The notes under the pieces: generated by a model
The model's input: only the letters and a program-made list of their open reading frames with translations
Told to the model about the DNA's origin: nothing
Database searches by the model: none
From: Microcoleus sp. FACHB-672
GTDB lineage: Bacteria; Cyanobacteriota; Cyanobacteriia; Cyanobacteriales; Oscillatoriaceae
Assembly (NCBI RefSeq): GCF_014695725.1
Contig: NZ_JACJOU010000013.1
Span: 1 to 64,000, forward strand
DNA length: 64,000 bases
Direction: 5' to 3'
Made by a program: the position numbers and the translations under genes
Shown: positions 1-23,546 of the stretch, piece by piece
Numbering within the stretch: position 1 is the stretch's first letter
Layout of the letters: the number at the start of each line of letters is the position of its first letter

Positions 1-1906
1 TAACCAATCCCTGATGGGGAATCATGGTTCCTTTGGGTTTGCCGGTGGAACCTGAGGTGTAAATAATATAGGCAAGATTGGAAGTATCGGCTATATTAAC
101 AGGATTTTCTTCGTTATATTGAGCAATGGTTTCCCAGTCTGTATCTAAGCAAACGACTTGTGCCGAATGTTGGGGAAAAATTTCAATTAAATGTGTTTGA
201 GTTAACAGAACCGGCGTCTGAGCATCTTCTAAAATAAAGCCTAATCGCTCAGAAGGATAGGCTGGATCAAGTGGGACATAAGCGCCACCGGCTTTGAGAA
301 TTCCCAAGATTGCCACCATCATTTCTAAGGATCGCTCCAGGCAAATCCCTACGAAAACTTCTGGCCCTACACCGAGCGAACGCAAGTAGTTTGCGAGTTG
401 ATTTGCTCTAGCGTTGAGCTGCCCGTAAGTTAGCTGTTTGTCTTGAAAAACTGCGGCTACAGCGTCGGGTGTAAGCTCTACTTGGGCTTCAAATAGCTGG
501 TGAACACACCTGTCGTGCGGGTAATCTGTCTGCGTGTTATTCCACTCAATGAGGATCTGATGTTGTTCTGCTGGGGTTAACAGTGGCAGCTCTGAAATGC
601 GCTCTACTGGGTTGGCAACAATTCCTTCGAGTAAGGTTTGGAAATGCCCCAGCATTCGAGTGATCGTATCAGCATCAAAGCGCCTGCAATCATATAAAAT
701 CTTAAGTGTTAACTCAGATTGTGCGAACACCGTCACGGTAATGGGGTAATTTGTGCTGTCGTGGGAGCGGACATCACAAATTTCCAGATGACTTATGTGT
801 TCTCGTAAAGCTGGATCAACAGGGTAATTTTCAAAAACTATGATGCTTTCAAATAGCGGGATATTGTGAGGAAGTTGGCTCCATTGATGCTGAATTTCTA
901 CCAGCGGACTGTATTCGTACTCGCGCAGCTCAACCTGCTGAAATTGTAGTTGTTTTAACCATGATAAAATTGACGCCTCTGCCGGCATCGAAACCCTCAT
1001 CGGCAGCGTGTTGATGAACATTCCCACAATAGATTCAGCGCCCAGCAAATCAGGAGGACGCCCCGAAACAGTCGCCCCGAAAACAACATCTTCTTCGCCA
1101 CTATAACGACTCAAAAGCAATGCCCAAGCGCCCTGGACGAGTGTATTTAATGTTAGCTGATGCTGCCTGGCTAAAGATTGAAGCGCAGCCGTTATTGATG
1201 GAGAAAGCGATATTTCGCGCTCACCTTGCTCGTTTTCTGGGTAGGATAAACTTAAATTTTGATCAACAAGTAATGGAGTCGGTGCAGTAAAGCCTTTGAG
1301 CGTCTCCCGCCAGAAAAATTCCGCAGCAGACAAATCCTGCCGATGTAACCAGGCAATGTAGTCTCGATAAGGGCGAGGACGCGCTAGGTTTAGTTCCTTG
1401 CCTTCGCAAAAGGCGTCATAAAATGCAAAGACTTCCTTGAGAATTAAGGGAAGCGACCATCCATCTAATATTAAATGGTGATGGCTCCAGATGAATTGAT
1501 AAGTATTTTCTTCTAACTGAATCAACGTGATGCGAATTAGCGGCGCGGATGTCAGTTCAAAATTTCGTTTTTGGTCTTTTTTGAGAAATGTTTCTAGGTG
1601 CGCTTGCTGTTTGATAGAAGATAGCGCTCTCCAATCCAAGTGTTCCCAAGGCAGATTGACTTGTTTGCAAACAACTTGGATTGGCTCTTTTAAGCCCTCC
1701 CAAACAAAAGCAGTGCGTAAAATCGAGTGCCGATTAATAACCTGCTGCCAACTCTCTTTAAAGGATGCAACATTGATTCTACCCTGGAAAGTGCAAAGTA
1801 GCTGCCCAAAATACACACTTGATTTTGGTTGATAAAGCGTGTGAAACAGGATGCCCTGTTGAATGGGCGAGAGGGGATAAAACTCTGCGATATTGCTTTT
1901 ACTCAT
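1..1906 (-). CDS. Non-ribosomal peptide synthetase, condensation-adenylation module (partial, runs off left edge)
   Basis: The reading frame opens at an ATG (1906-1904) and stays open to base 1, so the 3' part lies outside the window. The first ~440 residues are a condensation domain. It starts with a YPLSPIQQGILFH motif and has the catalytic HHLILDG (HHxxxDG). The rest is an adenylation domain up to the A3 signature YTSGSTGKPKGT; the substrate-code region is not in the window. The YPLSPxQxGxLFH type of opening is typical of C domains that accept a D-residue donor (DCL). That fits, because the preceding gene ends in an epimerization domain. One base separates this ATG from the stop of the upstream NRPS gene, so the two are almost certainly one operon with coupled translation. 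Role inferred: next elongation module of the same peptide. Confidence 0.93.
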   Translation of the reverse strand, partial: MSKSNIAEFYPLSPIQQGILFHTLYQPKSSVYFGQLLCTFQGRINVASFKESWQQVINRHSILRTAFVWEGLKEPIQVVCKQVNLPWEHLDWRALSSIKQQAHLETFLKKDQKRNFELTSAPLIRITLIQLEENTYQFIWSHHHLILDGWSLPLILKEVFAFYDAFCEGKELNLARPRPYRDYIAWLHRQDLSAAEFFWRETLKGFTAPTPLLVDQNLSLSYPENEQGEREISLSPSITAALQSLARQHQLTLNTLVQGAWALLLSRYSGEEDVVFGATVSGRPPDLLGAESIVGMFINTLPMRVSMPAEASILSWLKQLQFQQVELREYEYSPLVEIQHQWSQLPHNIPLFESIIVFENYPVDPALREHISHLEICDVRSHDSTNYPITVTVFAQSELTLKILYDCRRFDADTITRMLGHFQTLLEGIVANPVERISELPLLTPAEQHQILIEWNNTQTDYPHDRCVHQLFEAQVELTPDAVAAVFQDKQLTYGQLNARANQLANYLRSLGVGPEVFVGICLERSLEMMVAILGILKAGGAYVPLDPAYPSERLGFILEDAQTPVLLTQTHLIEIFPQHSAQVVCLDTDWETIAQYNEENPVNIADTSNLAYIIYTSGSTGKPKGTMIPHQGLV

Positions 1907-1907
1907 T

Positions 1908-4900
1908 TCACACCTCTCCCAGAACTGCATTAATTTTGTCTAAATCTTCTTGACTCCACTGGCTCCACTGAAACTCTGCAAAATCAGAGGGGGTGTAGCC
2001 ACCGGCATCGGGTGATTGGCAATGAGCGATTAGCGTTTGCAGTTTTGCCATAAACCCTTGCGCCAAGTTTTCTATGGTACTTTGCTGATGAATTTCTTGG
2101 CTGTATGTCCAATCTATTTGCAGCTTTTCACTGACAACAAAACCATTAATTTCTAATAGATAACTCCGATTACCTCGTGGGCTGCAAGTTAGACCCGGAG
2201 ACGTTGAGGAAAGGGCAAATAGAGAAGAGGCCGGCAGAACTTGGTCAAATTGTCCCAGATAGTTAAAACTTACTTCAGCTTGAGGCAAATAAAGCAATGT
2301 ATCAGCAATTTCGCCAGTCAAATATCGCAAAATGCCATAGCCAATGCCGTGATTAGGAATGCCTCGCAACTGCTCTTTAACCGCCTTCAAAGCCTCCCCA
2401 GGATGTGTGGCTTCTAAATATAACCAGACTGGAAATAAACTGGTAAACCAGCCCACAGTATGCGATAAATTTACATTCTCAAAAATATCTTCGCGTCCAT
2501 GACCTTCTAAATCAACAAGCAAGGTTTGTTTTCCAGTCCATTCTTCAAAAGCCTGTAGCAAAGCTGTCAACAATACATCATTAATTTGTGTGTGATAAGC
2601 TGCCGACACTTCTTGCAACAAAGAACGGGTTTCTTCGACACTTAATGTCACGGATACCGTGTTGGCTGTTGCAACTGTATTTGTCCCATTAACATGATCC
2701 ACCGGCAACGGAGAAACCTTTTTGCCAGAATGTGAAAGCCAGTGATTCAACTCTTGTTTTAATTCCCCCGATTGGGCGTACAAATTCAAGCGTTCTGACC
2801 ACTGTTTAAATGAAGTTGTTTTAGCTGGAAGTGTGAGCGCTTCATTTCGGCTTAGTTGTTCGTAAGCGGTCTGAAAATCTTCAATTAAAATCCGCCAGGA
2901 TACCCCATCAACAGCTAAGTGGTGAATTACAAATAACAAGTAATTCGGTTTTTGATCGCCAAAGTCGAACAAGGCAACGCGCATCAACGGCCCTTGCGAT
3001 AAGTTCAGACTGGCTTGCAAATTATCCACAGCTTTTTGCATGGCCGGTTCTTGTTCCTGTGCCGGCAGCGATGACAAATCTATTTCGCTAAATGGTACAG
3101 CCTCATCAGGTTCAGCATTTTCCTGTTGCCAGCCGGTTTCTTCGTGCAGAAAACGTAGGCGCAACGCATCATGATGCCTTAACAATTGCCGCACAACTTC
3201 TTCCACGCGTTTTAAATTAAGCGGTTGCTTCGTTTTTAGAAGAATTGACTGGTTCCAGTGATGGGAATCGGATAAATTTTGTTCAAAAAACCAGTGCTGG
3301 ATAGGTGTGAGGGAAAATTTTCCTGTGATTAGTTCTTGTTGAGATTCCAGCGCAGTAGTTGTGCCGGCAACGGCTGCTAGTTGAGCAATTGTTTGATATT
3401 GAAAGAGTTGTTTAGGTTTAAGTTTTAATCCGGCTTGATGCGCTTTAGCAATCACTTGAATGCTGAGGATAGAATCTCCCCCTAATTCAAAAAAATTGTC
3501 ATCAACGCTAACTTGTTTAAGACCAAGAACTTGACTCCAAATCTGTGCTAAGGTTTCCTCCACCGACGTGCGAGGTGCGGTAAAAATTTCTTCAAGTTCT
3601 GGTCGAGTTGTATGGGGTGCCGGCAACGCTTTACGGTCTACTTTTCCATTAGGCGTTAAAGGCAGCGCTTCTAAAATGACAAAGCTTGCCGGCACCATAT
3701 AATCCGGCAACTTTTCCTTAATAAATTCGCGTAGATCCTTGATAAGGAATGAGGGATCAGGGATTAAAGATGAAGGAACGAGATAGGCAACTAAACGTTT
3801 TTCTCCCGGTACATCTTTACGAGCAATAATAACACTTTGATGCACAATTGGATGCTGATTAATGATTGCCTCAATTTCAGAGATTTCTATCCGGAAACCT
3901 CTAATTTTTTCTTGGAAGTCAATTCGCCCTAATAGCTCAATGGTTCCATCGGGTAAATATCGGGCTAAATCGCCGGTTTTGTACAGCCGATTTGAAGCCC
4001 TTATCAAATCGCCTTCTCCCTCTCTTTCTTTAAAGAAGGGGTTGGGGATGAATTTTTCTGCGGTCAAATCTGGCCGGTTTAAATATCCTCGTGCTAAACT
4101 ATTTCCTCCAATATACAGCTCTCCGGAGACGCCAACCGGCACTGGCTGAAGATGAGAATCTAAAATATAAGTTTGGGTGCCGGCAAAGGGACGACCTATC
4201 GGAATTAACCCCTCGCTTTGCAGCTCAGTTACATTGCTTTCAAAGTAAGTGCTGTCGATGGTTGCTTCTGTCAGTCCATAGGAGTTTATCACGCGAGTTT
4301 CTGCCCCACAAAAGCGTTTAACTTCCTGATATTCTTTGCCATACCAGCTATCAGAACCGGCAATTAGCAACCGCATAAACTTGAGAGACTGATTGGTTTT
4401 CTCTAAATATTGAATTAAACCTCTTAAAACAGCCGGTACAAATTCAGCACAATCAATTTTTTCTTGAACCATTAGCGAATAAAGTTTTTCTGGTTCTAAC
4501 AAAAAATCTCGTGGACAGAGAACTAATTTCCCCCCAAAACAGAGCGCCCGGATCAAATCCCCAGAAAAGACATCGAAGGAGAAATTTGCCATTTGTAAAT
4601 GACAAGTTGCTGTCGAATCAAGCGAATAATTATTCTTCCAAGCAGTGTAGGCATTGATCAAATTGCTGTGGGAGATCATCACCCCTTTGGGAGTGCCGGT
4701 GGAACCAGAGGTATAAATGACATAAGCCAAGTTTGAAGAAGAACATGGCTGAGTTAGTTGGGGATTCTTAAAATAATCAGTTGCCTTGCTTTGAATTGAA
4801 TTTTGGCTTGGAATATCACCATCATTCCACTGATCTAAACAGACGATTTGAGCAGAATATTTAGGCAGATTTTCTAATAGTCTTGTCTGAGTAAGTAACA

Positions 4901-6650
4901 CCGGCACCTGTGCATCTTGCAACATGAAGGCGAGACGTTCCGATGGATAGGTGGGATCAAGGGGAACATAAGCGCCGCCGGCTTTAAGAATGCCGAGAAG
5001 TGCGACAAGCATTTCTAGGGAACGTTCAACACAAATTCCTACTAAAACTTCGGGCTGCACGCCTAAAGTTTGTAAGTGATTTGCTAAAAAATTAGCTTTT
5101 TTATTCAGTTCTCGATAAGTCAGATTTTGGTTTTCAAAAACAGCAGCAATGGCATCGGGTGTGCGTTCCACTTGTGCTTCAAATAGTTGATGTATGCACA
5201 AGTTTTGTTCTAATTTACTTGTTTCTTGGCTTTCCTTAACCCACTCTATTAGCAGTTGATGCTGTTCTGCTTCTGTGAGCAATGGTAGTTGGGAAATTCT
5301 CTGTTCTGGATGTTTAACAATTCCTTCTAATAAAGTTTTAAAATGTCCAATCGTGCGGCTGATGGTGCCGCTCTCAAACAAATCTATATTGTACTCAAAG
5401 CAGCCATAAAGCCCATCCGGCTTTTCCTCCATTTCCAGGGTTAAATCAAATTTAGAGGTGCCGCTATCAATGTCTAAAACACTCAAAGTTACCCCCGGTA
5501 ATTCCAAAGGTGGCATGGGTGCGTTTTGCAGCAAAAACATCACTTGAAACAGCGGGTTATGACTGAGGCTTCTTTCTGGTTTCAGTTCTTCAACGAGCTT
5601 TTCAAACGGTAAATCTTGATGATCATAAGCACCAAGCGTTACTTCTCGAACTTGTGCGAGTAATTCGCAAAAGCTGGTGTTTTCAGACAGTTGGGTGCGA
5701 AGAATTAATGTATTGACAAAAAAACCAATGAGTCCTTCAATTTCAGCTTTATTACGATTGGCGATGGGAGAACCCACTATAATATCCGTGCGCTCTGTGT
5801 AACGATAGAGCAACGCGTTAAAGGCTGCGAGAAGTGTCATAAACAGGGTGGCATTCTCGCGGTTACTGAACTTCTTCAGGTTGTCACTGACAACTTTTGA
5901 CAGGACAAATGATTGTCTTGCACCTCGAAATGTCTGAACGGCTGAGCGCGGTTTATCTGCCGGCAACTCCAGTAATAGAGGTGCATCTTTAAGCTGCTGC
6001 TTCCAATAATTTAACTGAGTTTCTAACTTCTCTCCTTGCAAGTTTTCCTGCTGCCAAATTGCAAAGTCGGCATATTGAATCGGAAGCTCAGGAAGCGGGG
6101 AGGATTTGCCTAGCAAAAAAGCTTCATAAAGGGCTGCTAATTCTTTTATCAGCACTCCTAATGACCAACCATCTGAAACAATATGGTGAATATTTACTAG
6201 CAGAATAAATTCTTGCTCGTCTAACTTAATTAGCGTGATTCGCAGCAAAGGAGGTTCGGCTAAGTTGAAGGTTGTTTGAGCCTCTTCAAGAATTGCCGTT
6301 TGGATTTGAGGATGGGGGTTTTGGATTTGGGTAAAATCTACGATTTGTAATTTTAAATCCACATTGGGATAAATGACTTGAACTGGCTGCCCGTCTTCAA
6401 GGGTAAATCCTGTTCGCAAGGCTTCATGCCGGCGCACAATTTCTTGAAAACTTTCTTCTAAAACAGGGATATTAACCCGCCCTTTCAATTGCACGGCAGC
6501 CGGCAAGTTGTAGAAAGAATTGCCCGATTCAAATTGATCAAGAAACCACAGCCTTTGTTGAGCGAATGAAGTGGGAAGCACAAAGACTTCCTCTGAACAA
6601 GTTGAAGTGGCTGGCATTTCTGAAGAGGAGTTAAAAAGAGGCAACGTCAT
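1908..6650 (-). CDS. Non-ribosomal peptide synthetase, C-A-PCP-E module
   Basis: A single NRPS module of 1580 residues. The condensation domain (~25-450) has HHIVSDG at 155-161. It is followed by an adenylation domain with YTSGSTGTPKGV, a carrier domain with FFELGGDSILS, and an epimerization domain that begins LTPIQHWFFEQ and carries HHLAVDGVSW. Reading the ten specificity positions by eye gives D-V-G-E-L-A-S-I-D-K. This resembles codes recorded for ornithine or other basic residues (DVGEIGSIDK type), so a D-Orn-like residue is the best guess, at low confidence. The gene follows the FAAL-NRPS gene by 49 bases and precedes the next NRPS gene by one base. The E domain must pair with the DCL-type condensation domain of that next protein. 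Start is the ATG at 6650. Confidence 0.95.
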   Translation of the reverse strand: MTLPLFNSSSEMPATSTCSEEVFVLPTSFAQQRLWFLDQFESGNSFYNLPAAVQLKGRVNIPVLEESFQEIVRRHEALRTGFTLEDGQPVQVIYPNVDLKLQIVDFTQIQNPHPQIQTAILEEAQTTFNLAEPPLLRITLIKLDEQEFILLVNIHHIVSDGWSLGVLIKELAALYEAFLLGKSSPLPELPIQYADFAIWQQENLQGEKLETQLNYWKQQLKDAPLLLELPADKPRSAVQTFRGARQSFVLSKVVSDNLKKFSNRENATLFMTLLAAFNALLYRYTERTDIIVGSPIANRNKAEIEGLIGFFVNTLILRTQLSENTSFCELLAQVREVTLGAYDHQDLPFEKLVEELKPERSLSHNPLFQVMFLLQNAPMPPLELPGVTLSVLDIDSGTSKFDLTLEMEEKPDGLYGCFEYNIDLFESGTISRTIGHFKTLLEGIVKHPEQRISQLPLLTEAEQHQLLIEWVKESQETSKLEQNLCIHQLFEAQVERTPDAIAAVFENQNLTYRELNKKANFLANHLQTLGVQPEVLVGICVERSLEMLVALLGILKAGGAYVPLDPTYPSERLAFMLQDAQVPVLLTQTRLLENLPKYSAQIVCLDQWNDGDIPSQNSIQSKATDYFKNPQLTQPCSSSNLAYVIYTSGSTGTPKGVMISHSNLINAYTAWKNNYSLDSTATCHLQMANFSFDVFSGDLIRALCFGGKLVLCPRDFLLEPEKLYSLMVQEKIDCAEFVPAVLRGLIQYLEKTNQSLKFMRLLIAGSDSWYGKEYQEVKRFCGAETRVINSYGLTEATIDSTYFESNVTELQSEGLIPIGRPFAGTQTYILDSHLQPVPVGVSGELYIGGNSLARGYLNRPDLTAEKFIPNPFFKEREGEGDLIRASNRLYKTGDLARYLPDGTIELLGRIDFQEKIRGFRIEISEIEAIINQHPIVHQSVIIARKDVPGEKRLVAYLVPSSLIPDPSFLIKDLREFIKEKLPDYMVPASFVILEALPLTPNGKVDRKALPAPHTTRPELEEIFTAPRTSVEETLAQIWSQVLGLKQVSVDDNFFELGGDSILSIQVIAKAHQAGLKLKPKQLFQYQTIAQLAAVAGTTTALESQQELITGKFSLTPIQHWFFEQNLSDSHHWNQSILLKTKQPLNLKRVEEVVRQLLRHHDALRLRFLHEETGWQQENAEPDEAVPFSEIDLSSLPAQEQEPAMQKAVDNLQASLNLSQGPLMRVALFDFGDQKPNYLLFVIHHLAVDGVSWRILIEDFQTAYEQLSRNEALTLPAKTTSFKQWSERLNLYAQSGELKQELNHWLSHSGKKVSPLPVDHVNGTNTVATANTVSVTLSVEETRSLLQEVSAAYHTQINDVLLTALLQAFEEWTGKQTLLVDLEGHGREDIFENVNLSHTVGWFTSLFPVWLYLEATHPGEALKAVKEQLRGIPNHGIGYGILRYLTGEIADTLLYLPQAEVSFNYLGQFDQVLPASSLFALSSTSPGLTCSPRGNRSYLLEINGFVVSEKLQIDWTYSQEIHQQSTIENLAQGFMAKLQTLIAHCQSPDAGGYTPSDFAEFQWSQWSQEDLDKINAVLGEV

Positions 6651-6699
6651 CGGCTTGATTTTGATTAATTACTGTTTGTTGCTGGCTGGCTTTTAACGG

Positions 6700-9600
6700 T
6701 TAGCGTAAAGAAGGTAATTTCTTGCGGTAAGCTTGGCGCGAAACCGGCACAATTTCCTGTTCTTGCAGTTTTTCGCCTTTCTTCTTAGCTTGGGAAATTT
6801 TTTCGCAAAGTCCGCTAATCGTTTGAACTTCAAATAAATCACGCAGAGGTAACTCTACCTGAAATGCTTCGCGCACTTTAGTCAACAATTGAGTTGCCAT
6901 TAAGGAATTTCCGCCTAGTTCAAAGAAACTGTCATAAATTCCGATTTGTTCTAGGCTTAACAGTTCAGACCAAATCCTTGCTAACCGCTCTTCAACCGGC
7001 GTTTGAGGAGCAACAAAGTTTTCATCCAACTCAGACTTAACAAAGTTAGGTGCGGGAAGTGCTTTGCGATTGACTTTGCCATTAGAAGTTAAGGGCAGAG
7101 TATCCAAGAGCATAAAGGTTGCCGGCACCATATATTCTGGCAGCTTTTCTTTTAGGAAACTTTGCAACGCTTTGAAGGATGAAACATCAGAAATTGAGGA
7201 AGAAGGCTCAGGAATAATATAAGCAACAAGACGCTTATTTTGCTGTTCGCCGAACGTTGTAACAACAGCTTCTCGCACGTCTGGATGTTGCCCCAGCGCT
7301 GCTTCGATTTCTCCTAATTCAATGCGATAGCCACCGACTTTAACTTGAAAGTCTTGTCTTCCTAAAAATTCAATATTTCCATCGGGGAGAAAGCGTCCTA
7401 AATCTCCTGTGCGGTAAAACTTTTCGCTGGTTCGAGGATGGGTAAAGAAGCTGGCAGCCGTTTTTACCTCATCGCGCCAGTAACCTTGGGCGAGTCCGAT
7501 GCCGGCAATATAAAGCTGCCCTGGAACCCATACCGGACAAGGTTCTAGCGCTTCATTGAGCACGTAGAAGCGCTGGTTTTTCATTGCTTGCCCGTAAGGA
7601 ATGCTTTTCCAACTTGGGTTGACTTGTTTAATTGGATAAAGAATTGACCAAATCGAGGCTTCTGTTGCACCCCCCAAGCTAATAACTTCTACTCCTTCAA
7701 CTGCGGCTTGAATTTGAGCCGGCAAGTTTAAAGGCAGCCAGTCTCCACTGAGCAAAACTAACCGCAAGCTTGCCAGGATTTCAGGAGTTTTACTGGCATA
7801 GTCCACCATCATTTGCATTAACGCCGGAACCGAATTCCAAATCGTAATTTTCTCGCGCTGCATTAACTTTGCCCAATAGGCAGGATCTTGGGTTTTCCCG
7901 GCTTCGGGAATAACAATGGTTCCCCCAGCAGCTAGGGTGCCAAAAATGTCATAAACTGAGAGATCAAAACTAAGGGAAGAAAGTGCAAATACTCGGTCAT
8001 TTCCTCCCACATTGAACCGCTGATTAATGTCAAAAATTGTGTTAACAGCACCGCGATGATTAATCGTTACACCTTTGGGAGTGCCGGTGGAACCAGAGGT
8101 GTAAATAACGTAAGCGAGATTCTCTTGAGAAATGAGGGCTGGGGCATACGGAATCAGAGATAAGTTTTCTCCGAATGCTTGATTATCTTCAATACAGATT
8201 CTTTGAAGATTTTTTGGCCATTCTAAGGCGGTATTAAGCCAAGATTGGGTGACGACGATCTGCACTTCTGCTTGGGCGAATAGATGCGATCGCCTCGCCG
8301 GCGGGAGTGCAGGATCAATGGGCACATAGGCTGCCCCAGACATGAGGATGCCTAGGCAGGCGACAACTTGCTCCCACCCTTTCTCCATAACGACGGCAAT
8401 TAGGGTATTTGGGCGTGCACCGAGTTGTTGCAATCGGCAGGCGAGGTAATGGGAATGCCGGTGTAATTCTTCGTAAGTTAGAGTGCGCTCGCTTGTCACC
8501 ACAGCCGCTTTTTGAGGGTGCAGAGGCACGCGATCTGTAAATAAGCTGTGAAGCGTCGCTGCCGGCACAGGTGCGTCGGTGGCGTTGATTGCATTGCGTT
8601 GCGTTAATTGTGCCGGTGGCAATAATTCACGGTGGATTTCTTGCGAGCTTTCTGTTTCATTGGCTAGACGTTGGAGGAAGTTGCAATAGGCAGCAAACAT
8701 ATCATCCAACATTCCGACGGGAAATAATTCTTCAACACAATCCCAGTAAAAAACAAGCGCTCCTGCTTCTTGAAATACTTGATGATCGAGAAAAACTTGG
8801 GGCGTTTGGGTAATACCGTAAATGAGCTTTCCTAGCCAATCTAAGGGAAAATTTTGTTCGCCTTGAGCATCTTGAGTTAAGGTGCTCGTAAACACCACCG
8901 GCATCATGGCGCTTGAAATTCTGTTTTGGTGCCGGCTTAACTCGCGCAACACTTCTACGCCACTGACATAACGATGATCTAGATCGTTCCAAAGTTGTTC
9001 TTGAATGCGCTGCACTCGCTGTGCAAAAGGCGCTGGTGTGGCGTTATTTACTTCCAGCAAAGTTAATGAGGTGAAATCTCCAACGATGTCATTAACTTGG
9101 GGATGCAATGGCAAACGATTGAATAAAGTTAAACCAATTGTAAAGTGAGGATTCTTGCTCCAAACCGTTAAGATTTCCGCAAAGGCAGCTAGCAAAATTC
9201 CTGAATGAGTGATGTTGGCTTTTGTGGCTTTACTTTTCAATTTTTGCCAAATTTTTGCCTCTAATTTACCGCTGCGCCGCACAAAACGTGGTTCTTTAAT
9301 GGCAGCGGGATTTTGAGCCAGCGGGAGTTCGGGTGCTGGGGGTAAACTGGGGAGCCGGTTTTGCCAATACTCTAAAGAACGCTGATAGAGTTCTGAATGG
9401 CGGCTAGCTATTTCACCTAATACATAATCTCGGAAAGAGATTTGAATTGGATTGAGTTGCTCTGTGCCACCTTGATAAAGTTTTGCAAGTTCTTGGCCAA
9501 TGATTTGAAAACTCGAAGCATCGCCAATTAAGGCATCAAAACTTAAGTGAAGCCGAACTTGCTGCTCATCTAATCGAGATGCCCGAATTTCAAACAAAGG

Positions 9601-15237: not shown

Positions 15238-15778
15238 TGATCTCTATCAACCCCAAAGTGTTGAACACGGCTGCAAAAAGTCAAAATTATCCCGTCAAAG
15301 CTTGAAAGCCTTGTCAGTAAACGCTTATAGCTGTTTAACTAAGGAATCTGCGAGAGCGCGTTTTGCTTGTTTTGCGCTCACCGGCCTGCCAGCGCCTTGA
15401 TGCAATCTGTAACAGGCTTCACAGTTATTCACCTTACCATGATGCAACTAATTGTCAATAGGCCGGTTCTAAATTTATAAATTTTACCAGGAACCTTGAA
15501 TAATCTTTCTCAGCTATTGAAGGTAAGATTTTGCCACGGGGTTGCTTAATGTGCAGTTTTCGTGCTTTCATGAATGCTGCTACTTGGCAAGAGGGGTTAT
15601 ACCCCCTGATAAGTAATGAATTTTATTGTCATTAAACTGTGATTGACAGAATGGATGACTTTGCTATTTAATTAGAATTCTTTCTCATTAAAGACTGAAC
15701 ACGGCTTCTAAAACTGATGAAACGTGGACTCAGGCAGATCATCAGGGTGTGACTGGCTCGATTTTTGTGTGAGGAGTA
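15238..15778. promoter_or_regulatory. Divergent intergenic region between NRPS operon and TonB receptor gene
   Basis: These 541 bases separate the divergent NRPS operon and the TonB-dependent receptor, so both promoters must lie here or close by. The half nearer the receptor is AT-rich. A GAGGAG ribosome-binding site sits at 15771-15776, just ahead of the receptor ATG at 15779. No ORF or RNA gene is recognisable. Shared iron control would be expected for such a locus, and one candidate operator is listed separately. Confidence 0.5.
15614..15634. promoter_or_regulatory. Candidate Fur-like operator
   Basis: The dyad TAATGA-N9-TCATTA lies about 145 bases upstream of the TonB receptor start, in an AT-rich stretch. 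The half-sites match those of the Fur consensus (GATAATGATAATCATTATC). The spacing is nine bases instead of three, that is, one extra hexamer under the hexamer-repeat model of Fur boxes. This is pattern matching by eye; a single AT-rich dyad may arise by chance. Confidence 0.3.
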
Positions 15779-18556
15779 ATGGACAGACAACAGCAATTTC
15801 TCAGGGGTTTGGGGCTGGCAGGACCTTTATCAGTGTTAATCGCTTTGCCGGCAAAAAGTGAGATCGCCCAAGTGACCAACGTTCGGGTCAACCAGACGCC
15901 AAGCGGCCTGGAGGTTATCTTAGAAACCGCAGACGGCAAACCTTTGCAAGTCTTCAGTTACAGCTATGGTGAAACCTTCGTCGCGGATGTGATCACTACT
16001 CAGTTGCGTTTGCCGGCTGGTAATGTATTTCGTCAAGACAATCCAGCACCAGGAATCACCTCAATCGAAGTAATCCCGCTGGATACTTACAGCATTCGAG
16101 TCATCGTTACCGGCGAGACAGGTGTACCCACCGCACAAGTGAGCAATAGCAAACAGGGTCTAGTTCTCAGCGTCAATCCCGGTACTGAAACAACCGCACA
16201 ACAGCCGGCACCGACTAGACCGACAACGCCATCAGAGCAACCCAGCATTGAAGGGCCGCCGGCACCGATCCCCACACCGCCCTCTGGTCAGCAACCCACA
16301 CTACCAACGATCCCCACGTCACCCGACACCGAACCAGAGACTGAAACACCGATCCCCAGACCTTCTCCAGATGCCGGTGAACCAGACGTTCAAACCCCCT
16401 CGACTCCGCCATCTCGTGAACCGGGTGCTGAAATTCCGCCACTGCCTTCCACTGGGCCTGACTCCACTCAAACAGAAGCAGAACGACCTGTTGACCTGAT
16501 TGTGACAGCCACCCGAACCGCAGAAGAAGTGGAAGATGTACCGCGTTCTGTCACTGTCATTGATCGTGAAGAGATCGCAGAACAGGCAACCTTTTCCAGA
16601 AACCTCCCCGATGTACTGGGCCAGACGGTTCCCGGCTTAGGCCCACCAAACCAAAGCTACCGTTCCTTCGGTCAGTCTTTGCGGGGTCGCCGGCCTCTGG
16701 TATTGATTGACGGCGTGCCGGTGAGCACCAACCTTTCAACCGCCTATGTTACAGAACTGCGATCCATTGATCCCAGCGCGATTGAGCGAGTTGAAGTCAT
16801 TCGCGGCCCTAGTGCAGTTTATGGGGAAGGGGCGACAGGGGGTGTGATCAACATTATTACCAGGTCGCCTGGTGAAGAGGGCATTACTTCGACAATCGAA
16901 GCAGATCTGACGAACTCCTTAAGCCATATCGAGGACAGTTTCGGATCGAACGTTGTTTATGGACTCTCTGGCCGGCAGGGTAATGTTGACTTTACCACCA
17001 GCGCCTCAGTCGTCAAAGTTGGCGGAGTTTTTGATGCCGAAGGCGATCGAATTCCCCTCGCTGAAGTCGATGCTTCGGATAGCACAACGATTAACTTACT
17101 CGGCAAAGTTGGCCTAGATATTACCGACGACCAGCGCATCCAACTGACGTTTAATCATTTCCGCGACACGCAAGAAGTGAAATACGTCACCGATCCAGCC
17201 GTTGACGAAGATGAAGATGACGAAAAAGCCAGAGCACTGAGAAGAAACTTACAATTTATTGGAGTGACTGGCCCACAAAACCTGAACACTGTCGCAACGC
17301 TAGATTATTCCAATCAAGACATCTTTGGCAGCCGCGTTCAGGCACAAGCCTACTTTCGGCATAACGCCAGTGGCGGCGCATATTTTGACAACCGCATTTT
17401 CGAGCCAGAAAGCCCAACTGATGTTGTCAATTCCCGACAGGAAACAGAACGCTTAGGCGGACGATTGCAGATTGATACCCCTTTTAGTGATGTTGCCAGC
17501 TTACTTTGGGGGGTTGATTATGTAAATGAGGATATCGCCCAGACGTTTCAAGTTTTTGACCCGGAAGAGTTCGATGCAAGCGGAGGTACCGTTCTGCGAA
17601 AAATCGGAGAGCGCGTTTTTGTCCCCCCTTATGAAGTGAATAACTTGGGTTTGTTCGCCCAGGCGCAATGGGATGTTAGCGAGCAATTTCTTTTAAGTGG
17701 CGGCTTGCGTCACGAACGCATCGGACTGAGCGTTAACGACTATATCACCTCAGAAGATCAGCCGATTGAAGGGGGAGATCGGGATTTTGATGCAACGGTT
17801 TTTAATGCCGGCCTTGTTTTTAAAGCCACGGAAGAAGTTAGTTTCTTTACTAACTTTGCCCAAGGTTTTTCCATCCCAGATTTTGGGCGCATTCTCCGCA
17901 GACCTCCCGAAGGTTTTGTTGCGGTTAACTCAGATTTGCCGGTAACAGAACCGATCAAAACGAATAACTACGAACTTGGCGTTCGAGGTCAGTGGTCTCG
18001 GGTGCAAGTTTCCCTGGCCGGTTTCTACAATACCTCAGAGCTTGGTTCCACTCTGCAAGAGGATGAAAACGGTCGATTAGAAATTATCCGTGCCCCACAA
18101 CGTATATACGGCGCTGAAGCCACCCTTGATTGGCAACCGACAGATGACTGGCAACTCGGCGGAACCGCAAGCTGGACAGAAGGTGAAAGTGATGATGATG
18201 AAGATGGCGAATATTTAGCGCTTGATAGTAGCACTATCCAGCCGATAAAACTGACAGCTTATCTCGAGAATCAAACCACACCAGGCTGGAGTAATCGTTT
18301 GCAATTGCTCTTTAGTGGGAATCGCAGCGCCGGCTTTGAAGCTGAACTGGATGGTGCACCGATTGAAAGTTACATCACAGTAGATTACCTCAGCAGCATT
18401 CAAATCGGGCGAGGAACACTGCAAATTGGCATTCAAAACTTGTTAAATGAGCAGTATTCCACTGTCCAATCTCAATGGCTGGGTGGTTTTCTAGATTCTC
18501 TGGACACCGCAGCTAGAGGCAGAACGCTCACTGTAGGCTACAGCTTGTCTTTTTAA
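15779..18556 (+). CDS. TonB-dependent siderophore-type receptor with N-terminal AMIN domain
   Basis: A 925-residue outer-membrane receptor that imports a metal chelate using TonB energy. A short hydrophobic leader precedes an AMIN domain (~30-132), a feature common in cyanobacterial receptors of this class. A Pro/Thr-rich linker (~138-235) follows, then a TonB-box-like DLIVTATRT (~239-247). The plug domain contains VPRSVTVIDREEI and RVEVIRGPSAVYGEGATGG. The rest is a 22-strand-type beta-barrel ending in the aromatic C-terminus YSLSF. The ATG at 15779 has a GAGGAG site six bases upstream. It is divergent from the NRPS operon and followed by PepSY and MFS genes, which suggests it takes up the product of that NRPS. 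The substrate is inferred from this neighbourhood; homologues also carry other chelates. Confidence 0.93.
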   Translation: MDRQQQFLRGLGLAGPLSVLIALPAKSEIAQVTNVRVNQTPSGLEVILETADGKPLQVFSYSYGETFVADVITTQLRLPAGNVFRQDNPAPGITSIEVIPLDTYSIRVIVTGETGVPTAQVSNSKQGLVLSVNPGTETTAQQPAPTRPTTPSEQPSIEGPPAPIPTPPSGQQPTLPTIPTSPDTEPETETPIPRPSPDAGEPDVQTPSTPPSREPGAEIPPLPSTGPDSTQTEAERPVDLIVTATRTAEEVEDVPRSVTVIDREEIAEQATFSRNLPDVLGQTVPGLGPPNQSYRSFGQSLRGRRPLVLIDGVPVSTNLSTAYVTELRSIDPSAIERVEVIRGPSAVYGEGATGGVINIITRSPGEEGITSTIEADLTNSLSHIEDSFGSNVVYGLSGRQGNVDFTTSASVVKVGGVFDAEGDRIPLAEVDASDSTTINLLGKVGLDITDDQRIQLTFNHFRDTQEVKYVTDPAVDEDEDDEKARALRRNLQFIGVTGPQNLNTVATLDYSNQDIFGSRVQAQAYFRHNASGGAYFDNRIFEPESPTDVVNSRQETERLGGRLQIDTPFSDVASLLWGVDYVNEDIAQTFQVFDPEEFDASGGTVLRKIGERVFVPPYEVNNLGLFAQAQWDVSEQFLLSGGLRHERIGLSVNDYITSEDQPIEGGDRDFDATVFNAGLVFKATEEVSFFTNFAQGFSIPDFGRILRRPPEGFVAVNSDLPVTEPIKTNNYELGVRGQWSRVQVSLAGFYNTSELGSTLQEDENGRLEIIRAPQRIYGAEATLDWQPTDDWQLGGTASWTEGESDDDEDGEYLALDSSTIQPIKLTAYLENQTTPGWSNRLQLLFSGNRSAGFEAELDGAPIESYITVDYLSSIQIGRGTLQIGIQNLLNEQYSTVQSQWLGGFLDSLDTAARGRTLTVGYSLSF

Positions 18557-18633
18557 GACTAAACCGAGCTAAAAAGAGCGGAAAATTCACTGCCTTTTAA
18601 ATAGGACTGCCGGTTAACTAATTCTGATTGAGT

Positions 18634-18660: not shown

Positions 18661-18781
18661 TCAGTTATTCAGAGAAATTGAGGCGGCATGATATCAGAAT
18701 AGAGGAATAGTTTTTGAGCGATAAAAAGGAGCCGGCTGGAGCCATTTAACTACCCATCCTTTCCAAATTCGGTGAATCAAT

Positions 18782-19945
18782 ATGAAATTACGTCAGCTCG
18801 CCTTGAGTGTACACCGCTATTTAGGAATATTAGTCGGACTAATACTGGTTCTAATTGGCTTAACCGGCAGCTTTTTAGTTTTCCATAAAGAGATCAATGA
18901 ATTCCTCAATCCCCACCTCTCTCATGTCATTCCCCAAGGAGAGCGAATATCTGTCCAATCAGTTGTTGATACTGTGCGATCAGCCTATCCCGATTTAACG
19001 CTTTCTTTCATTGATCTGCCTAAAAAGATCGATAGCGTTTATAAAGTAGCAATGACATCAAAAAACGATGAATTGCTTTACTTTTACCTCAATCCCTACA
19101 CTGGAAATATCCTCGGTTCTCAACAGTGGGGACGCACCTTAACCACTTTTATCTATGATCTGCACTACAAACTGCTTGCCGGCGAAACCGGCATGAAAGT
19201 TGTTGGCATCTGCGGCATATTGTTGCTACTGCTCAGCATCACCGGCATCATTTTATGGCCAGGTTGGAAAAAATTAATTTCAGGCTTTAAAATTCGCTGG
19301 AATTCCCCAAGCCGACTCATTAATTACGACCTTCACAAAGTCGGGGGAATCTTCTCAGCCATCTTTCTAATAATCATCGCCTTCACCGGCACCGCCATAA
19401 TTTTTTACACTGAATTTGAAAACACCGTTTACTCAATAACTCAAACATCCCATCCGCCGGAACTCACATCAAAAGTTGTAAAAAACAAGCCGGTGATGTC
19501 AATAGATGCCATTTTAAAAAAAGCCGATGCAGCTTTACCAGGGGCAAAAACAACCTTTGTTTCCCTTCCAAACCAACCCGAAAAAATTATCCAAGTTAGA
19601 AAGAAATTCCCCCAAGAAATCACCCCAAATGGAAATAGTAGAATCTATCTTGACCAGTACAGTGGCCAAGTTTTACGCATAGAAAACGCCTTAAAAGCCC
19701 CTTTAGCCAACAGAATTATAAACTTACAATTTCCCCTCCACATCGGCAACTATGGAGGCATAGGAACCCGAATCATTCATGTATTCATAGGTCTTTCCCC
19801 CGCCTTCCTATTTTTTACAGGTCTCGTATTGTGGCGACAACGCCAGTGGGCCAAAGCACGAAAAGAAGAAGCCATCCGCCGCAGCCTAGGCATCCCAACT
19901 TACGAACAAGAACCCCTTCGGCTAACCGAATGGCCCTGGTTTTAA
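18782..19945 (+). CDS. PepSY-associated TM domain protein (iron-regulated membrane protein / PiuB-like)
   Basis: A 387-residue inner-membrane protein of the PepSY_TM family. The first helix is at ~10-33 after the typical opening LALSVHRYLGILVGL. Two further helices lie around 140-160 and 190-215 (GGIFSAIFLIIIAFTGTAIIFY), and the last is near 340-355 (IHVFIGLSPAFLFFTGLVLW). The periplasmic loops between them carry the PepSY-type segments. Members are often encoded beside TonB-dependent siderophore receptors, and some act as reductases or accessory permeases in ferric-siderophore use. The ATG at 18782 is 225 bases after the receptor stop on the same strand. The role here, handling the imported chelate at the inner membrane, is inferred from position. 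Confidence 0.88.
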   Translation: MKLRQLALSVHRYLGILVGLILVLIGLTGSFLVFHKEINEFLNPHLSHVIPQGERISVQSVVDTVRSAYPDLTLSFIDLPKKIDSVYKVAMTSKNDELLYFYLNPYTGNILGSQQWGRTLTTFIYDLHYKLLAGETGMKVVGICGILLLLLSITGIILWPGWKKLISGFKIRWNSPSRLINYDLHKVGGIFSAIFLIIIAFTGTAIIFYTEFENTVYSITQTSHPPELTSKVVKNKPVMSIDAILKKADAALPGAKTTFVSLPNQPEKIIQVRKKFPQEITPNGNSRIYLDQYSGQVLRIENALKAPLANRIINLQFPLHIGNYGGIGTRIIHVFIGLSPAFLFFTGLVLWRQRQWAKARKEEAIRRSLGIPTYEQEPLRLTEWPWF

Positions 19946-20020
19946 ATAACCAAAATAAGATATTAAAATAAGCAGTTAATCCTTACAAAAACTTATAACA
20001 CTTCCCCCTAGTTCATCTCA

Positions 20021-20050
20021 TCTGCGTTAATCTGCGTCCATCTGCGGTTA
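20021..20050. repeat. Short 10-bp-period repeat (TCTGCG units)
   Basis: TCTGCG occurs at 20021, 20031 and 20041, exactly 10 bases apart, ending in GGTTAAAAAT just before the MFS gene. The same unit recurs near 29806 and, as an inverted pair, near 21363-21410. It is a dispersed intergenic repeat of unknown role. Confidence 0.6.
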
Positions 20051-20066
20051 AAAATATATACCTATC

Positions 20067-21362
20067 GTGCGAACATTCCTAACCATTTGGAGCGGTCAAA
20101 CAGCCTCACTCATTGGCAGTAAAATGTCCAGATTTTCCCTCACAATATGGATGTGGGAAATTACAGAACAAACAACAGCATTAGCATTATTCGCCTTCTT
20201 CACTCAAATCCCACGAATCTTAATTGCACCCTTCGCCGGCATCATCGTAGATCGCTACAATCGGAAACTTCTAATGATAGCCGGCGATACCGTTGCCGGC
20301 ATATCAACCATCGCCATCTTATTCCTTTATCTCACCCACAATCTGCAAATCTGGCACCTATATGTAGTCGGCTCAATCACCGGCACCTTCGAGCAAATTC
20401 AAGAACTTGCCTACTCAGCAACAATATCAATGATGGTGCCCCAAAAGCAGTACAGCCGCGCCAGCAGTATCGGCTTTTTAGCAAATTATAGCTCTAATAT
20501 CATGGCACCGGCACTCGCAGGTTCTCTCTACTATCTCATTAGCCTCGCCGGCATCTTAACTATCGACCTCATCACCTTTGTACTCGCCGTCACCACAGTC
20601 CTCTTCGTACAAATCCCGCAACCAAAAATCACGGAAACAGCACAACAAAGCCGGCCAAATATCCTCCACGAAATCAGTTTCGGCTTCCGCTACATCGCCA
20701 AACGCCCCAGCTTACTAGCGTTGCTGCTATCAGCTTCCCTGTTTTGGTTCGCCCACGATATCGGCGCAGCACTTTATTCACCCATGATTTTAGCCCGCAC
20801 CGGCAACGATGCCAGAGTCTTGGGAACCGTCGCCTCAGCAGCCGGTATTGGTGGCGTACTGGGGGCGCTGATCATCACCGGCTGGGGTGGCCCAAAGCGC
20901 CGAATCAACGGTTTTCTGCTGGGAATGGTGGGTGCCGGCGCGAGTAAAATCGTGTTTGGCTTCGGTCAAATGCTATTCATTTGGATTCCAGCACAATTTT
21001 GTTCATCGCTCAATTTTCCACTGCTGGGCAGTTCTTATGATGGGATTTGGTTGGCCAAGGTTAAACCGGCAGTGCAAGGGCGCGTATTCGCCACTCGTTC
21101 AATGCTGATGATGATCATGTCAGCACTCGGTTACTTAATAGCTGGGCCACTTGCGGATTATGTATTTGAGCCGGCAATGAAGCCAGAAGGTTCGCTGGTA
21201 CCCATTTTTGGGGGAATATTTGGGACGGGTAACGGTGCCGGTGTGGCGCTACTGTACGTTATTAGCTCAATCTGTTTATTGCTTGTTGGGTTAAGTGGGT
21301 ATGCTTGCCGCCGGTTGCGCGATGTGGAACGCCTTGTGCCGGATCGGGATGAGAATTTTTAA
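20067..21362 (+). CDS. MFS transporter, EntS-like (MFS_3 family) exporter
   Basis: A 431-residue major facilitator with about 12 membrane segments. It opens MRTFLTIWSGQTASLIGSKM and has a cytoplasmic DRYNRK loop after helix 2 (residues ~63-68), both typical of the MFS_3/EntS group that exports siderophores or drugs. The start is a GTG (20067). Together with the receptor and PepSY gene on the same strand, this makes it the likely exporter of the NRPS product. It ends in a convergent stem-loop shared with the acylase gene. Substrate is inferred from context; macrolide-type efflux is the main alternative. Confidence 0.87.
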   Translation: MRTFLTIWSGQTASLIGSKMSRFSLTIWMWEITEQTTALALFAFFTQIPRILIAPFAGIIVDRYNRKLLMIAGDTVAGISTIAILFLYLTHNLQIWHLYVVGSITGTFEQIQELAYSATISMMVPQKQYSRASSIGFLANYSSNIMAPALAGSLYYLISLAGILTIDLITFVLAVTTVLFVQIPQPKITETAQQSRPNILHEISFGFRYIAKRPSLLALLLSASLFWFAHDIGAALYSPMILARTGNDARVLGTVASAAGIGGVLGALIITGWGGPKRRINGFLLGMVGAGASKIVFGFGQMLFIWIPAQFCSSLNFPLLGSSYDGIWLAKVKPAVQGRVFATRSMLMMIMSALGYLIAGPLADYVFEPAMKPEGSLVPIFGGIFGTGNGAGVALLYVISSICLLLVGLSGYACRRLRDVERLVPDRDENF

Positions 21363-21410
21363 CCGCAGATAAACGCAGATAAATTAGCAATTATTGGTGT
21401 TTATCTGCGG
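21363..21410. terminator. Convergent stem-loop between MFS and acylase genes
   Basis: A perfect 12-bp stem (21363-21374 with 21399-21410) with a 24-base loop fills the gap between two converging genes. The arms are copies of the dispersed CCGCAGATAAAC repeat in inverted orientation. It probably acts as a bidirectional terminator, and the right arm is followed by GTTTTAAAAC. Confidence 0.6.
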
Positions 21411-21413
21411 GTT

Positions 21414-23546
21414 TTAAAACTGTTGCCGAGAAGCTAAATGCGCTTCAATTTCCGGGCGAGATCGCCATACTGGCCTTAATTGTTTGCCGGCAAATAACTT
21501 TAACTGATCGCCACGATGCGGCGAATTGGGTTGCGTTGCATTGCCATAACTGGTCAGTGCCATTGCTTTTACCGGCTGAGAAAATTCAATCACGGCAACA
21601 TAAGAATCTCCCCCAACTGCTTCAAAATGACCGTCTTTTGTGGGAGATAATTCAAGCGCACGAAATGCACCCAGAAAATCTTCAGCACCATTTGCCGGCA
21701 AATTAACATCCCCCGAATCAAGCCGGTTTACCTCGCCCCACGCGATATCTAGTGCGCCATAAGTCGCCTCAACTTTGGCTGCAACTGCTTCTAATGTCGC
21801 AACCGCGTCGGCAGGATCTGCCAAACCATCGGGCGTTGTCAGGGGAGATTTTTCACTCCAAGGTTTCGCAAACAAGTTATCAGAATCCATTGCATCAGCC
21901 CAGAATGCAAAAAGCACGGCACCTCGGCTATCTGCATCTGCGTTGCGATCCCAATTTTGCAAGACATCAGCTGCCCGACGCGCCAATTCACTACCCTGAC
22001 GGGCTGCAGGAATTAAATCGTCTAGCAAACGATCAGCCAATTCCATGCGCGTTGAGTGCTTATATTTAACCACTTCATCAAACGAGAGTTTGTCATCTTC
22101 AAGCAGCATCTTAGCCGAACGTTGGGGCCGCAAATTCATCGGGCCACGCGGTGCCATATAAGAGGGATAATTATCTGGCTCGATTGCCGGTGGAAATGTT
22201 GTTGTCCAGGGCGAATCGTTAGCATTTTGCAACCAGCCGGTGGGTGGATCGATCACACGAGGTAAGTCTTCGTAAGGGTGATTTTTTGACCATAAATTCC
22301 CAGAACTATCGCCTGGGATAATACCTGACCAATCTTCAAAATCTCCTTGAGAACGCACCGGCACCTGACCGTTAAAAAAGTGCATAATATGCCCTTCTCG
22401 ATCCGCATATATCACCGTGAACATGGGAATTTGCAAGCGTTTAAGAGCGATTTCAAACGCTGTCAAATTGTTCGCCCGTGCCATCTCCCACCACTCTTCT
22501 AAAGCTCCCGGCTGATCTAATCCTACAACTCGCAGCGCAATTGCTTTATCATCTTTTTGCGCCACAACCGGCCCGTGAATGGATCGCCGCACGCTCAAAG
22601 GTTCTTCACGTAGAGTCCCGTCTGCTTGTTTCACTTTCAAGACTTTGTTTTCTATCTCAAAAGCTCTGGTTTTTCCATCGAAGCGATAACCATCCTTTGC
22701 TAATTGCAATTCGTAGGCATCCCAGCCATCATGGGTGTTAACCGTATGAGTCCAACCGAGGTTATTATTAAAAGCAATTTCTAGAACAGGAAATCCTACG
22801 AGGGTTGCTCCATAAGCATCAATTCCCGGGGCATTCAGTTGCGCTTCATACCAAAGAAATAAGTCTGCCCAAGGAAGATGAGGGTTGGCAACTAACATGG
22901 CATTTCCACTTTCTGAATGTGAAGGTGCAATCGCCCAACCATTAGAACCGGCAGGATTGGCGTCTTCGTGAATATTGGAAAGACTTTGTGGGTTGACAAC
23001 AAAGGTGAAATGAACAACACGCTGCAAGTGAGCGAGTAAATCTGCCGGCTCAATGGGCAGCACAATTTCTAATTCGTCGTCAATTTCATCACGATGTTGT
23101 TTAGCATAAGCGTTGATGCCGGCGGCAAAGGCATTAAGGTTAGTTTGAAACTCTGGACTTTGGGCTTTATACCATTCGCTGGCGCGTTGGGGAATTCCCA
23201 TTGTGTGTACCCATTGATCGGATTCTAAATAATCTTCCCCCCAGTATTCTGCTGCCCGTCCCCGCGCTTGAGCATACAAACGTAAAATCAGATTGCCGTG
23301 ACTTTGCATCTGCGCCCAACCAAAGGCGTGAAACAAACTTTTTGCATCTTGTGAAAAAATATGAGGAACGCCATAGGTATCCCACAAAATTTCGTTGCTT
23401 TGTGAGCCGGCAGATGGGCTGTAGATGCCTAGAAGCAAAGTTATGGCAAAACTGGCAATTAATAGAGTGATTCGTAACAATCGCCCTTTAAGACGAGCTG
23501 AAAGCGGGAGATTTAAGAACATATTTAGAAGGTAGAGCCTGAACAA
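21414..23546 (-). CDS. Penicillin acylase family protein (PvdQ / acyl-homoserine lactone acylase-like)
   Basis: A 710-residue secreted Ntn-hydrolase. The N-terminal hydrophobic helix (~22-42) is a signal sequence. The alpha chain opens with ILWDTYGVPHIF. The self-cleavage site is at PAG|SNGWAIAPS, making Ser201 the N-terminal nucleophile of the beta chain. The beta chain carries the oxyanion region NPHLPW, HTVNTHDGWD and SIHGPV. Family members hydrolyse amide-linked acyl groups: penicillins, N-acyl-homoserine lactones, or, for PvdQ, the fatty acyl tail of the pyoverdine precursor. Here it ends convergently with the exporter of a fatty-acyl-primed NRPS locus. A PvdQ-like removal of the acyl tail in the periplasm is therefore an attractive inference, with AHL degradation as the alternative. 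Confidence 0.9.
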   Translation of the reverse strand: MFRLYLLNMFLNLPLSARLKGRLLRITLLIASFAITLLLGIYSPSAGSQSNEILWDTYGVPHIFSQDAKSLFHAFGWAQMQSHGNLILRLYAQARGRAAEYWGEDYLESDQWVHTMGIPQRASEWYKAQSPEFQTNLNAFAAGINAYAKQHRDEIDDELEIVLPIEPADLLAHLQRVVHFTFVVNPQSLSNIHEDANPAGSNGWAIAPSHSESGNAMLVANPHLPWADLFLWYEAQLNAPGIDAYGATLVGFPVLEIAFNNNLGWTHTVNTHDGWDAYELQLAKDGYRFDGKTRAFEIENKVLKVKQADGTLREEPLSVRRSIHGPVVAQKDDKAIALRVVGLDQPGALEEWWEMARANNLTAFEIALKRLQIPMFTVIYADREGHIMHFFNGQVPVRSQGDFEDWSGIIPGDSSGNLWSKNHPYEDLPRVIDPPTGWLQNANDSPWTTTFPPAIEPDNYPSYMAPRGPMNLRPQRSAKMLLEDDKLSFDEVVKYKHSTRMELADRLLDDLIPAARQGSELARRAADVLQNWDRNADADSRGAVLFAFWADAMDSDNLFAKPWSEKSPLTTPDGLADPADAVATLEAVAAKVEATYGALDIAWGEVNRLDSGDVNLPANGAEDFLGAFRALELSPTKDGHFEAVGGDSYVAVIEFSQPVKAMALTSYGNATQPNSPHRGDQLKLFAGKQLRPVWRSRPEIEAHLASRQQF

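Follow-up and report, generated by a model that had tools for sequence, protein, structure and literature searches.

Beta-hydroxyaspartate lipopeptide siderophores, the cyanochelins, are a published cyanobacterial class which is defined by two beta-hydroxyaspartate (beta-OH-Asp) residues (PMC12628792). For cyanochelin B that report describes priming by a fatty acyl-AMP ligase (FAAL), a Cys-derived thiazoline and a product consisting of thiazoline, Phe, Gly, beta-OH-Asp, Ser, beta-OH-Asp and ethanolamine. The lipopeptide is photolabile; iron is monopolized without UV and shared with neighbours under UV. Production under iron limitation and the binding and photoreduction of Fe(III) are further traits of the class. 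Acylases that process the tails of non-ribosomal peptide synthetase (NRPS) products are reported from two systems, PvdQ from that of pyoverdine and GdnD from that of glidonin, with a telomycin acylase mentioned as similar. Here we describe a locus of Microcoleus sp. FACHB-672. It lies at the start of a stretch of 64,000 bases, referred to as the window, which covers bases 1-64000 of contig C13 (NZ_JACJOU010000013.1; 381,725 bases) in a genome of 6.37 Mb (34 contigs, 99.84% complete). From its genes, we assign it as a siderophore locus of the cyanochelin class, an amide-primed variant without polyketide synthase (PKS) that is nearly whole over two contigs. The new element of the locus is an acylase that recurs in related clusters and matches their loading chemistry.

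The assembly line and its likeness to cyanochelin B

The minus strand of the window carries the genes for NRPS1, NRPS2 and the first 643 residues of NRPS3. A TonB-dependent receptor, a PepSY_TM protein and a major facilitator superfamily (MFS) transporter follow on the plus strand, and then the acylase on the minus strand. The preliminary description, made from the window alone, had read an acyl-primed NRPS with a Cys heterocyclization module, divergent from receptor, PepSY_TM protein and exporter and closed by an acylase; all of these are present in that order. The profile scores were far above chance (e.g. Condensation 545.7 bits and, for the acylase, Penicil_amidase, PF01804, 455.6 bits).

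NRPS1 (6700..15237, minus strand) has the order FAAL-T-C-A-T-Cy-A-T, where T is a carrier, C a condensation, A an adenylation and Cy a heterocyclization domain, as judged by Pfam and NCBIfam matches, domain calls, motifs and codes. With bases computed from residue numbers, the FAAL spans 13513-15189, the carrier 13183-13422, C 11794-13146, A1 10279-11727 (code DLFNNALTYK), T 10018-10215, Cy 8668-9972, A2 7057-8559 (DLYNLSLIWK) and the last T 6808-6987. In the Cy domain FDALIGD replaces HHxxxDG and the DxxxxD motif is present. Two genomes of the same genus, G001 and G002, carry NRPS1 orthologues with 84% and 83% identity. NRPS2 (1908..6650, minus strand) was called as C-A-T-E, with an epimerization domain (E) and the code DVGEIGSIDK; its orthologues are at G001:C8:1139262-1143920 and G002:C17:62058-66800. 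The 5' part of NRPS3 (2..1930, minus strand) consists of C and the start of A and matches the N-terminal part of NRPS3 in G001 and G002. Window base 1 is base 1 of C13, and NRPS3 is incomplete because the window opens at this contig end, inside the A domain.

The continuation was sought among the other contigs. Read along the genes, the terminal 100 bases are identical between C13 and C29, and the initial 100 bases are identical between C15 and C9, so the ends alone cannot pick the partner of C13. In G001 and G002, however, the locus is unbroken. C13 aligns to NRPS3 residues 1-641 in G001 (79%) and 1-640 in G002 (81%), whereas C9 aligns to residues 1822-2680 (80%) and 1802-2632 (74%), respectively, and the gene order on C9 tracks that of G001. 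Since C13 and C9 thus correspond to two ends of one NRPS3 gene, we conclude that the assembly line continues on C9; the part of NRPS3 between them lies outside the available sequence. C29 and C15 align to two parts of one other G001 gene (87 and 96%). At the breaks (window 1-150 and contigs C29, C15 and C9), A-domain stretches at least 100 bases long are identical between the two NRPS clusters of this strain, which suggests recent gene conversion between them and would account for the assembly having broken there. NRPS3 has two modules in G001 and G002, and in G205, G101, G187 and G199 it is a single C-A-T gene followed by a separate C. For FACHB-672 a single module is favoured, because the break looks like one shared A-domain repeat. 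In G205, G101, G187 and G199 the NRPS3 A domain reads VDWV[IV]SLADK, without the usual first Asp, which we take to be a code of the beta-alanine type; as it is unlike the partial code of the window, the residue differs.

Contig C9 encodes, in this order, the rest of NRPS3 (A-T-C), a free TauD, Cx-A-T, C-A-T-C-TauD, Cx-A-T-reductase, an aminotransferase, a methyltransferase and a thioesterase. For the terminal reductase the Pfam score comes from the G001 protein, which is 88% identical, and domain calls placed the reductase in the FACHB-672 protein as well. C9 thus adds two Asp modules and two TauD-type hydroxylases, one free and one fused to an NRPS. HHxxxD is absent from both Cx domains of C9, and each stands directly ahead of an Asp-coded A domain. 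A C fold without HHxxxDG before the A domain of a predicted hydroxylated Asp marks both as interface-type C domains, a name that we take to follow Reitz 2019. After the three codes given above come a partial ..IGEVGK, DLTKIGHVGK, DILQLGLIWK and DLTKIGHVGK. The codes were read by alignment, on which single letters depend, and we take their meanings in order to be Ala-like, Cys, Orn, Asn-like, Asp, Gly and Asp. The predicted chain would be acyl-Ala-thiazoline-D-Orn-X-betaOHAsp-Gly-betaOHAsp, released reductively and probably aminated.

The codes are read most firmly against the cyanochelin B cluster (Leptolyngbya sp. NIES-3755 plasmid 2, AP017310.1), which gave DLYNLSLIW (last letter unread), DAWTIAAVCK, DILQLGLIWK, DLTKIGHVGK, DVWHFSLIDK, DLTKIGHVGK and DILQLGLIWK. 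The Gly code and both Asp codes of FACHB-672 agree with it in all ten letters; for the Cys code, nine letters were read there and all nine agree. Both loci have FAAL priming, a Cys-Cy thiazoline, a Gly module, two DLTKIGHVGK Asp modules, one with a free and one with an NRPS-fused TauD, a terminal reductase, and a divergent AMIN-TonB receptor with an MFS gene. The NIES-3755 cluster differs in loading via FAAL-ketosynthase (FAAL-KS) and PKS modules and in its FecBCD- and DevABC-type transporters, and no match to the acylase was found on its plasmid. FACHB-672, in turn, has FAAL-T-C loading, an amino acid before the Cys and then D-Orn, and a PepSY_TM protein, an acylase and an aminotransferase. 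Neither the parts on C13 and C9 nor the G001 and G002 loci, which are unbroken, gave a KS match; the short gap at the break of FACHB-672 is outside the sequence. In the parts covered, the hybrid PKS/NRPS core of cyanochelin B is absent, and the fatty-acid-primed start is present as FAAL-carrier.

Because both Asp modules share their code with the two beta-hydroxy-Asp modules of cyanochelin B, we place the locus in the cyanochelin class, whose two beta-OH-Asp are represented at the gene level by two Asp modules and two TauD domains on C9. As these residues define the class, the lack of PKS steps is treated as a variant trait within it. The siderophore-like function that the preliminary description had proposed is well supported at the gene level by the same C9 half. 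The analogues it chose, among them yersiniabactin and pyoverdine, are less close than cyanochelin B. The word "undescribed" has to be narrowed: the class is published, with FAAL and thiazoline in cyanochelin B, and it is the predicted residue order and the amide-primed, PKS-less start that differ from cyanochelin B. No paper describing the predicted residue order was found in a literature search that did not extend to the 2021 cyanochelin survey. Automated metallophore mining with cyanobacterial hydroxylase (CyanoBH_Asp) clades is in print (PMC12971057), and similar loci may therefore already be flagged as metallophore clusters.

The same FAAL-T-C-A-T-Cy-A-T start occurs in seven clusters (FACHB-672, G001, G002, G205, G101, G187 and G199). 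Their codes vary at positions 1, 3 and 4 and at the Gly position. The Cys code is exact in four of the seven; G199 departs from it by one letter, and G205 and G187 read DMYNFGVLWK. None of the 14 Asp codes deviates by more than two letters, and such constancy amid variable codes fits a conserved chelating end. In G378, G032, G384, G551, G575 and L057, TauD and an interface-type module come immediately after FAAL-T-C, which would place the fatty acid there on beta-OH-Asp itself.

The acylase, TauD and the loading chemistry

The acylase gene (21414..23546, minus strand) encodes an Ntn-hydrolase with a signal-like N-terminus. The G001 orthologue starts at residue 9 of the FACHB-672 open reading frame (ORF) and the G002 orthologue has the same length as that of G001, which makes the ATG at 23522 the probable start. 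The assignment to the PvdQ family stands at the superfamily level only: the PvdQ equivalog model NF051460 scored 249.7 bits against a cut-off of 950, and the nearest solved structures are glutaryl/cephalosporin acylases (652 bits) rather than PvdQ (216 bits), and the name PvdQ itself was rejected. As in the glutaryl-7-ACA and cephalosporin acylases, the N-terminal Ser of the beta-chain is aligned (residue 201) and the catalytic Ser-His frame is kept. All 32 aligned acylases, that of FACHB-672 included, keep Ser201, Asn202, His223 and the QNAND Asn residues unaltered; the alignment took ORFs of 600-800 residues and left out split copies. Unlike in these enzymes, the Arg57-beta column holds no Arg in any of the 32 (Ala 20, Glu 5, Asn 3, Thr 2, Ser 1, Gly 1). 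We take Arg57-beta to be the residue that binds the glutaryl carboxylate. With the catalytic residues kept and this Arg lost, the protein is a predicted acylase and probably not a glutaryl acylase. Judged by eye, most of the acylases begin with a basic stretch followed by a hydrophobic one, which suggests export.

The co-occurrence of acylase and TauD was analysed in 386 genomes drawn evenly from the phylum, with E <= 1e-120 for the acylase and E <= 1e-80 for TauD. The acylase was found in 35 genomes, TauD in 26 and both in 23 (Fisher p 3e-25, kinship ignored). TauD was also present in 21 of the 25 genomes with an acylase at least 59% identical, versus 2 of 10 below 59%. In 17 of the 23 genomes with both, the two genes are at most 60 kb apart on one contig. 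Contig ends come between them in G101, synteny joins them in FACHB-672, and in G280, G080, G161 and G145 they are not linked.

Family f6 (217 genomes) has the acylase in 145 genomes and TauD in 123. From the 150 matches listed, 112 TauD clusters were built, and the top three FAAL-KS candidates per genome were scored. Among the matches listed, an acylase lies within 60 kb in 52 of 104 TauD clusters without a FAAL-KS match versus none of 8 with one (Fisher p 0.007). This p value is soft, because most of the eight FAAL-KS neighbours may be separate clusters: of the seven examined (all but G448), only G474 was confirmed as one assembly line, and the FAAL-KS is located downstream of TauD and runs in its direction in G597, G524, G541 and G494, and is on the opposite strand in G482 and G461.

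Architectures were then drawn for 33 entries from 32 genomes or records, mostly chosen from the acylase and TauD lists. All 21 TauD clusters with acylase and FAAL in view load by FAAL-T-C. From 42 further acylase-linked f6 clusters, eight were picked at random and the first six fetched, and all six were FAAL-T-C, which brings the count to 27 of 27 (kinship ignored). Two cases fit less cleanly. G336 has its acylase broken into two ORFs, and likewise its FAAL-T-C protein; in G308, FAAL and TauD are encoded on opposite strands about 15 kb apart. G354 has FAAL-T-C and acylase without TauD; the FAAL is outside the view in G103, G253 and G093; G338 and G145 show TauD with neither FAAL nor acylase in view, and G127 and G302 an acylase with neither FAAL nor TauD. 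In the stretches examined, the acylase is absent from all three clusters with FAAL-KS in one protein (NIES-3755, G291 and G474). At the limit used, none was found genome-wide in G291 and G474, nor on the NIES-3755 plasmid. G174, with a separate FAAL and a KS, has no acylase in its genome. An amide-linked tail can be cleaved by an amidase and a ketosynthase-linked tail cannot, which gives the pattern chemical sense.

Transport genes, control region and neighbours

The receptor (15779..18556, plus strand) consists of AMIN, plug and beta-barrel by Pfam. It is the single match in each of the three genomes of the genus, FACHB-672 included (E <= 1e-50), its orthologues are 92 and 97% identical, and it shares 45.3% identity with the receptor beside the cyanochelin B genes. 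The PepSY_TM membrane protein (18782..19945, plus strand; PF03929, 226.7 bits) is perhaps a periplasmic ferri-siderophore reductase. The MFS transporter (20067..21362, plus strand; PF07690) has orthologues in G001 and G002 and is a probable siderophore exporter. It had been called EntS-like, which is a loose label, as the EntS model NF007792 gave 68.9 bits against a cut-off of 324; the name EntS was rejected, and the protein is a general MFS transporter.

NRPS1 and the receptor gene are separated by a divergent control region of 541 bp (15238..15778) with a candidate promoter, TTGACA at 15643-15648 and TATTTA at 15665-15670, and the element TTCTCATTAA at 15682-15691. An island of the region is kept in FACHB-672, G001, G002, G205, which belongs to another family, and G101. 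The consensus scan did not pick it up. With at most one mismatch TTCTCATTAA occurs upstream of 8 of 25 receptor genes, versus a shuffled mean of 2.1 and a maximum of 7 in 60 rounds; the pattern was derived from the window and its relatives, and five of the eight carriers probably share the site by descent. It is a possible, weak candidate for a Fur-type site, through which the locus would be under iron control.

Adjoining the acylase, window 24002-29506 encodes a very large fusion of Ser/Thr kinase, AAA, GAF and histidine kinase, and this adjacency is kept in both relatives of the genus. Further on are a class D beta-lactamase homologue (window 34457-35326; 282.6 bits, NCBIfam cut-off 250) next to a lytic transglycosylase gene, and an SbmA/BacA-like ABC half-transporter (window 39629-41359; ABC_membrane_2), whose best NCBIfam match, a peroxisomal fatty-acyl transporter model, is below the cut-off. 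The second NRPS cluster encodes a 1415-residue protein (L009 9423-13670; G000:C15) that contains a carrier domain as well as an FkbH domain (301 bits, cut-off 146.65). The carrier is its sole Pfam match at 0.001, and about 690 C-terminal residues are without a match.

Proposed pathway and comparison with known systems

The explanation that we prefer, at a probability of roughly 60%, is a cyanochelin-class locus, with its first part in the window, that includes uptake, export and an acylase removing the fatty acid. The FAAL would activate a fatty acid, and the first C domain would join it by an amide to residue 1 (Ala-like). Cy would close the following Cys into a thiazoline, NRPS2 would add D-Orn, and one or more further residues would come from NRPS3 (partial Asn-like code). 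The C9 enzymes would add beta-OH-Asp, Gly and beta-OH-Asp, with the free and the fused TauD hydroxylases acting at the interface-type C domains that lack the catalytic motif. Release by the reductase would probably be followed by amination. The MFS protein would export the product and the periplasmic acylase probably strip off the acyl tail, in the manner of PvdQ in pyoverdine. The ferric form would be re-imported by the TonB receptor and may be reduced by PepSY_TM. If the acylase acts in this way, the mature product may not be a lipopeptide, as it was labelled at first.

Several points weigh against this explanation. The C13-C9 junction rests on synteny and not on sequence spanning it. Among the matches listed, 52 of the 104 f6 TauD clusters without FAAL-KS have no acylase within 60 kb, which rules out a strict acylase-TauD rule, and 97 of the 150 listed f6 acylases have no listed TauD within 60 kb. 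L057 and L070 show FAAL-T-C and TauD without an acylase, in stretches that end inside the cluster. Most of the 27 clusters were picked for carrying an acylase, and six came from the random draw. Acylases of the superfamily act on other substrates, N-acyl-homoserine lactones (AHLs) included.

The same linkage of acylase and TauD would be expected if the product stays acylated, as an ordinary cyanochelin-like lipopeptide, and the acylase attacks the ferric siderophore after uptake, or foreign acyl siderophores, in recycling or iron release. Cyanochelin B is itself described as a lipopeptide (PMC12628792), and microbial tailoring of acyl siderophores is in print, to judge from a reference title (Gauglitz 2014). 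By itself this leaves the acylase-less FAAL-KS clusters unexplained, yet under either model a C-C-linked tail would be beyond the reach of the enzyme; we consider it an unlikely but serious alternative. It is improbable that the acylase is a quorum-quenching, self-protecting or general amidase that lies near siderophore genes by chance. Anabaena PCC 7120 is reported to have an AHL acylase, AiiC, GdnD is reported to detoxify lipopeptides and to be encoded far from the glidonin cluster, and many listed f6 acylases are not near a listed TauD; against this stand the strong co-occurrence with TauD, the linkage across several families and on plasmids, and the match to the loading chemistry. A continuation of C13 into C15, whose other NRPS cluster with FkbH and thioesterase domains would give a product that is no beta-OH-Asp siderophore, is allowed by the shared 100-base ends and was rejected as very improbable, because C13 and C9 are two ends of one NRPS3 in two relatives and C29 and C15 one different gene in G001.

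Returning to deacylation before release, we tentatively extend it to a widespread cyanobacterial maturation of beta-OH-Asp siderophores, although we hold this wider proposal to be doubtful. Amide-primed precursors would be stripped by a dedicated non-PvdQ acylase, in parallel to pyoverdine, whereas ketosynthase-primed products such as cyanochelin B would keep the tail. In the subgroup of the present locus, loss of the acyl group would expose the residue 1 amine beside the thiazoline nitrogen and could create the third bidentate iron site, for which the authors of cyanochelin B propose a hydroxyl beside the thiazoline (PMC12628792). The word "acylase" is absent from the main text of that paper, and a pairing of acylase and cyanobacterial siderophore was not found in the titles and visible abstracts of a limited library, with the 2021 cyanochelin survey outside it. 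If the tail is lost before release in many relatives, their products would differ in diffusion, in membrane hold and in how mass spectrometry detects them, and lipopeptide screens would miss these products. Amide priming with an acylase and ketosynthase priming without one is a prediction that can be read from genomes.

Annotated plasmid clusters of Leptolyngbya boryana (pLBX), Gloeothece citriformis PCC 7424 and Nostoc NIES-3756 resemble the FACHB-672 locus in the FAAL-T-C start, TauD and TonB receptor, and their acylases are 56-67% identical to its acylase. They differ in siderophore-binding ABC import genes and show no Cy module in the stretches seen; those of L. boryana and NIES-3756 also have PKS modules. 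We know of no product of these three clusters. The pyoverdine/PvdQ system (PMC5474475) shares with the present locus an acyl siderophore precursor and an exported Ntn-hydrolase acylase of the same superfamily, and differs from it in acylase subfamily, chelators and phylum.

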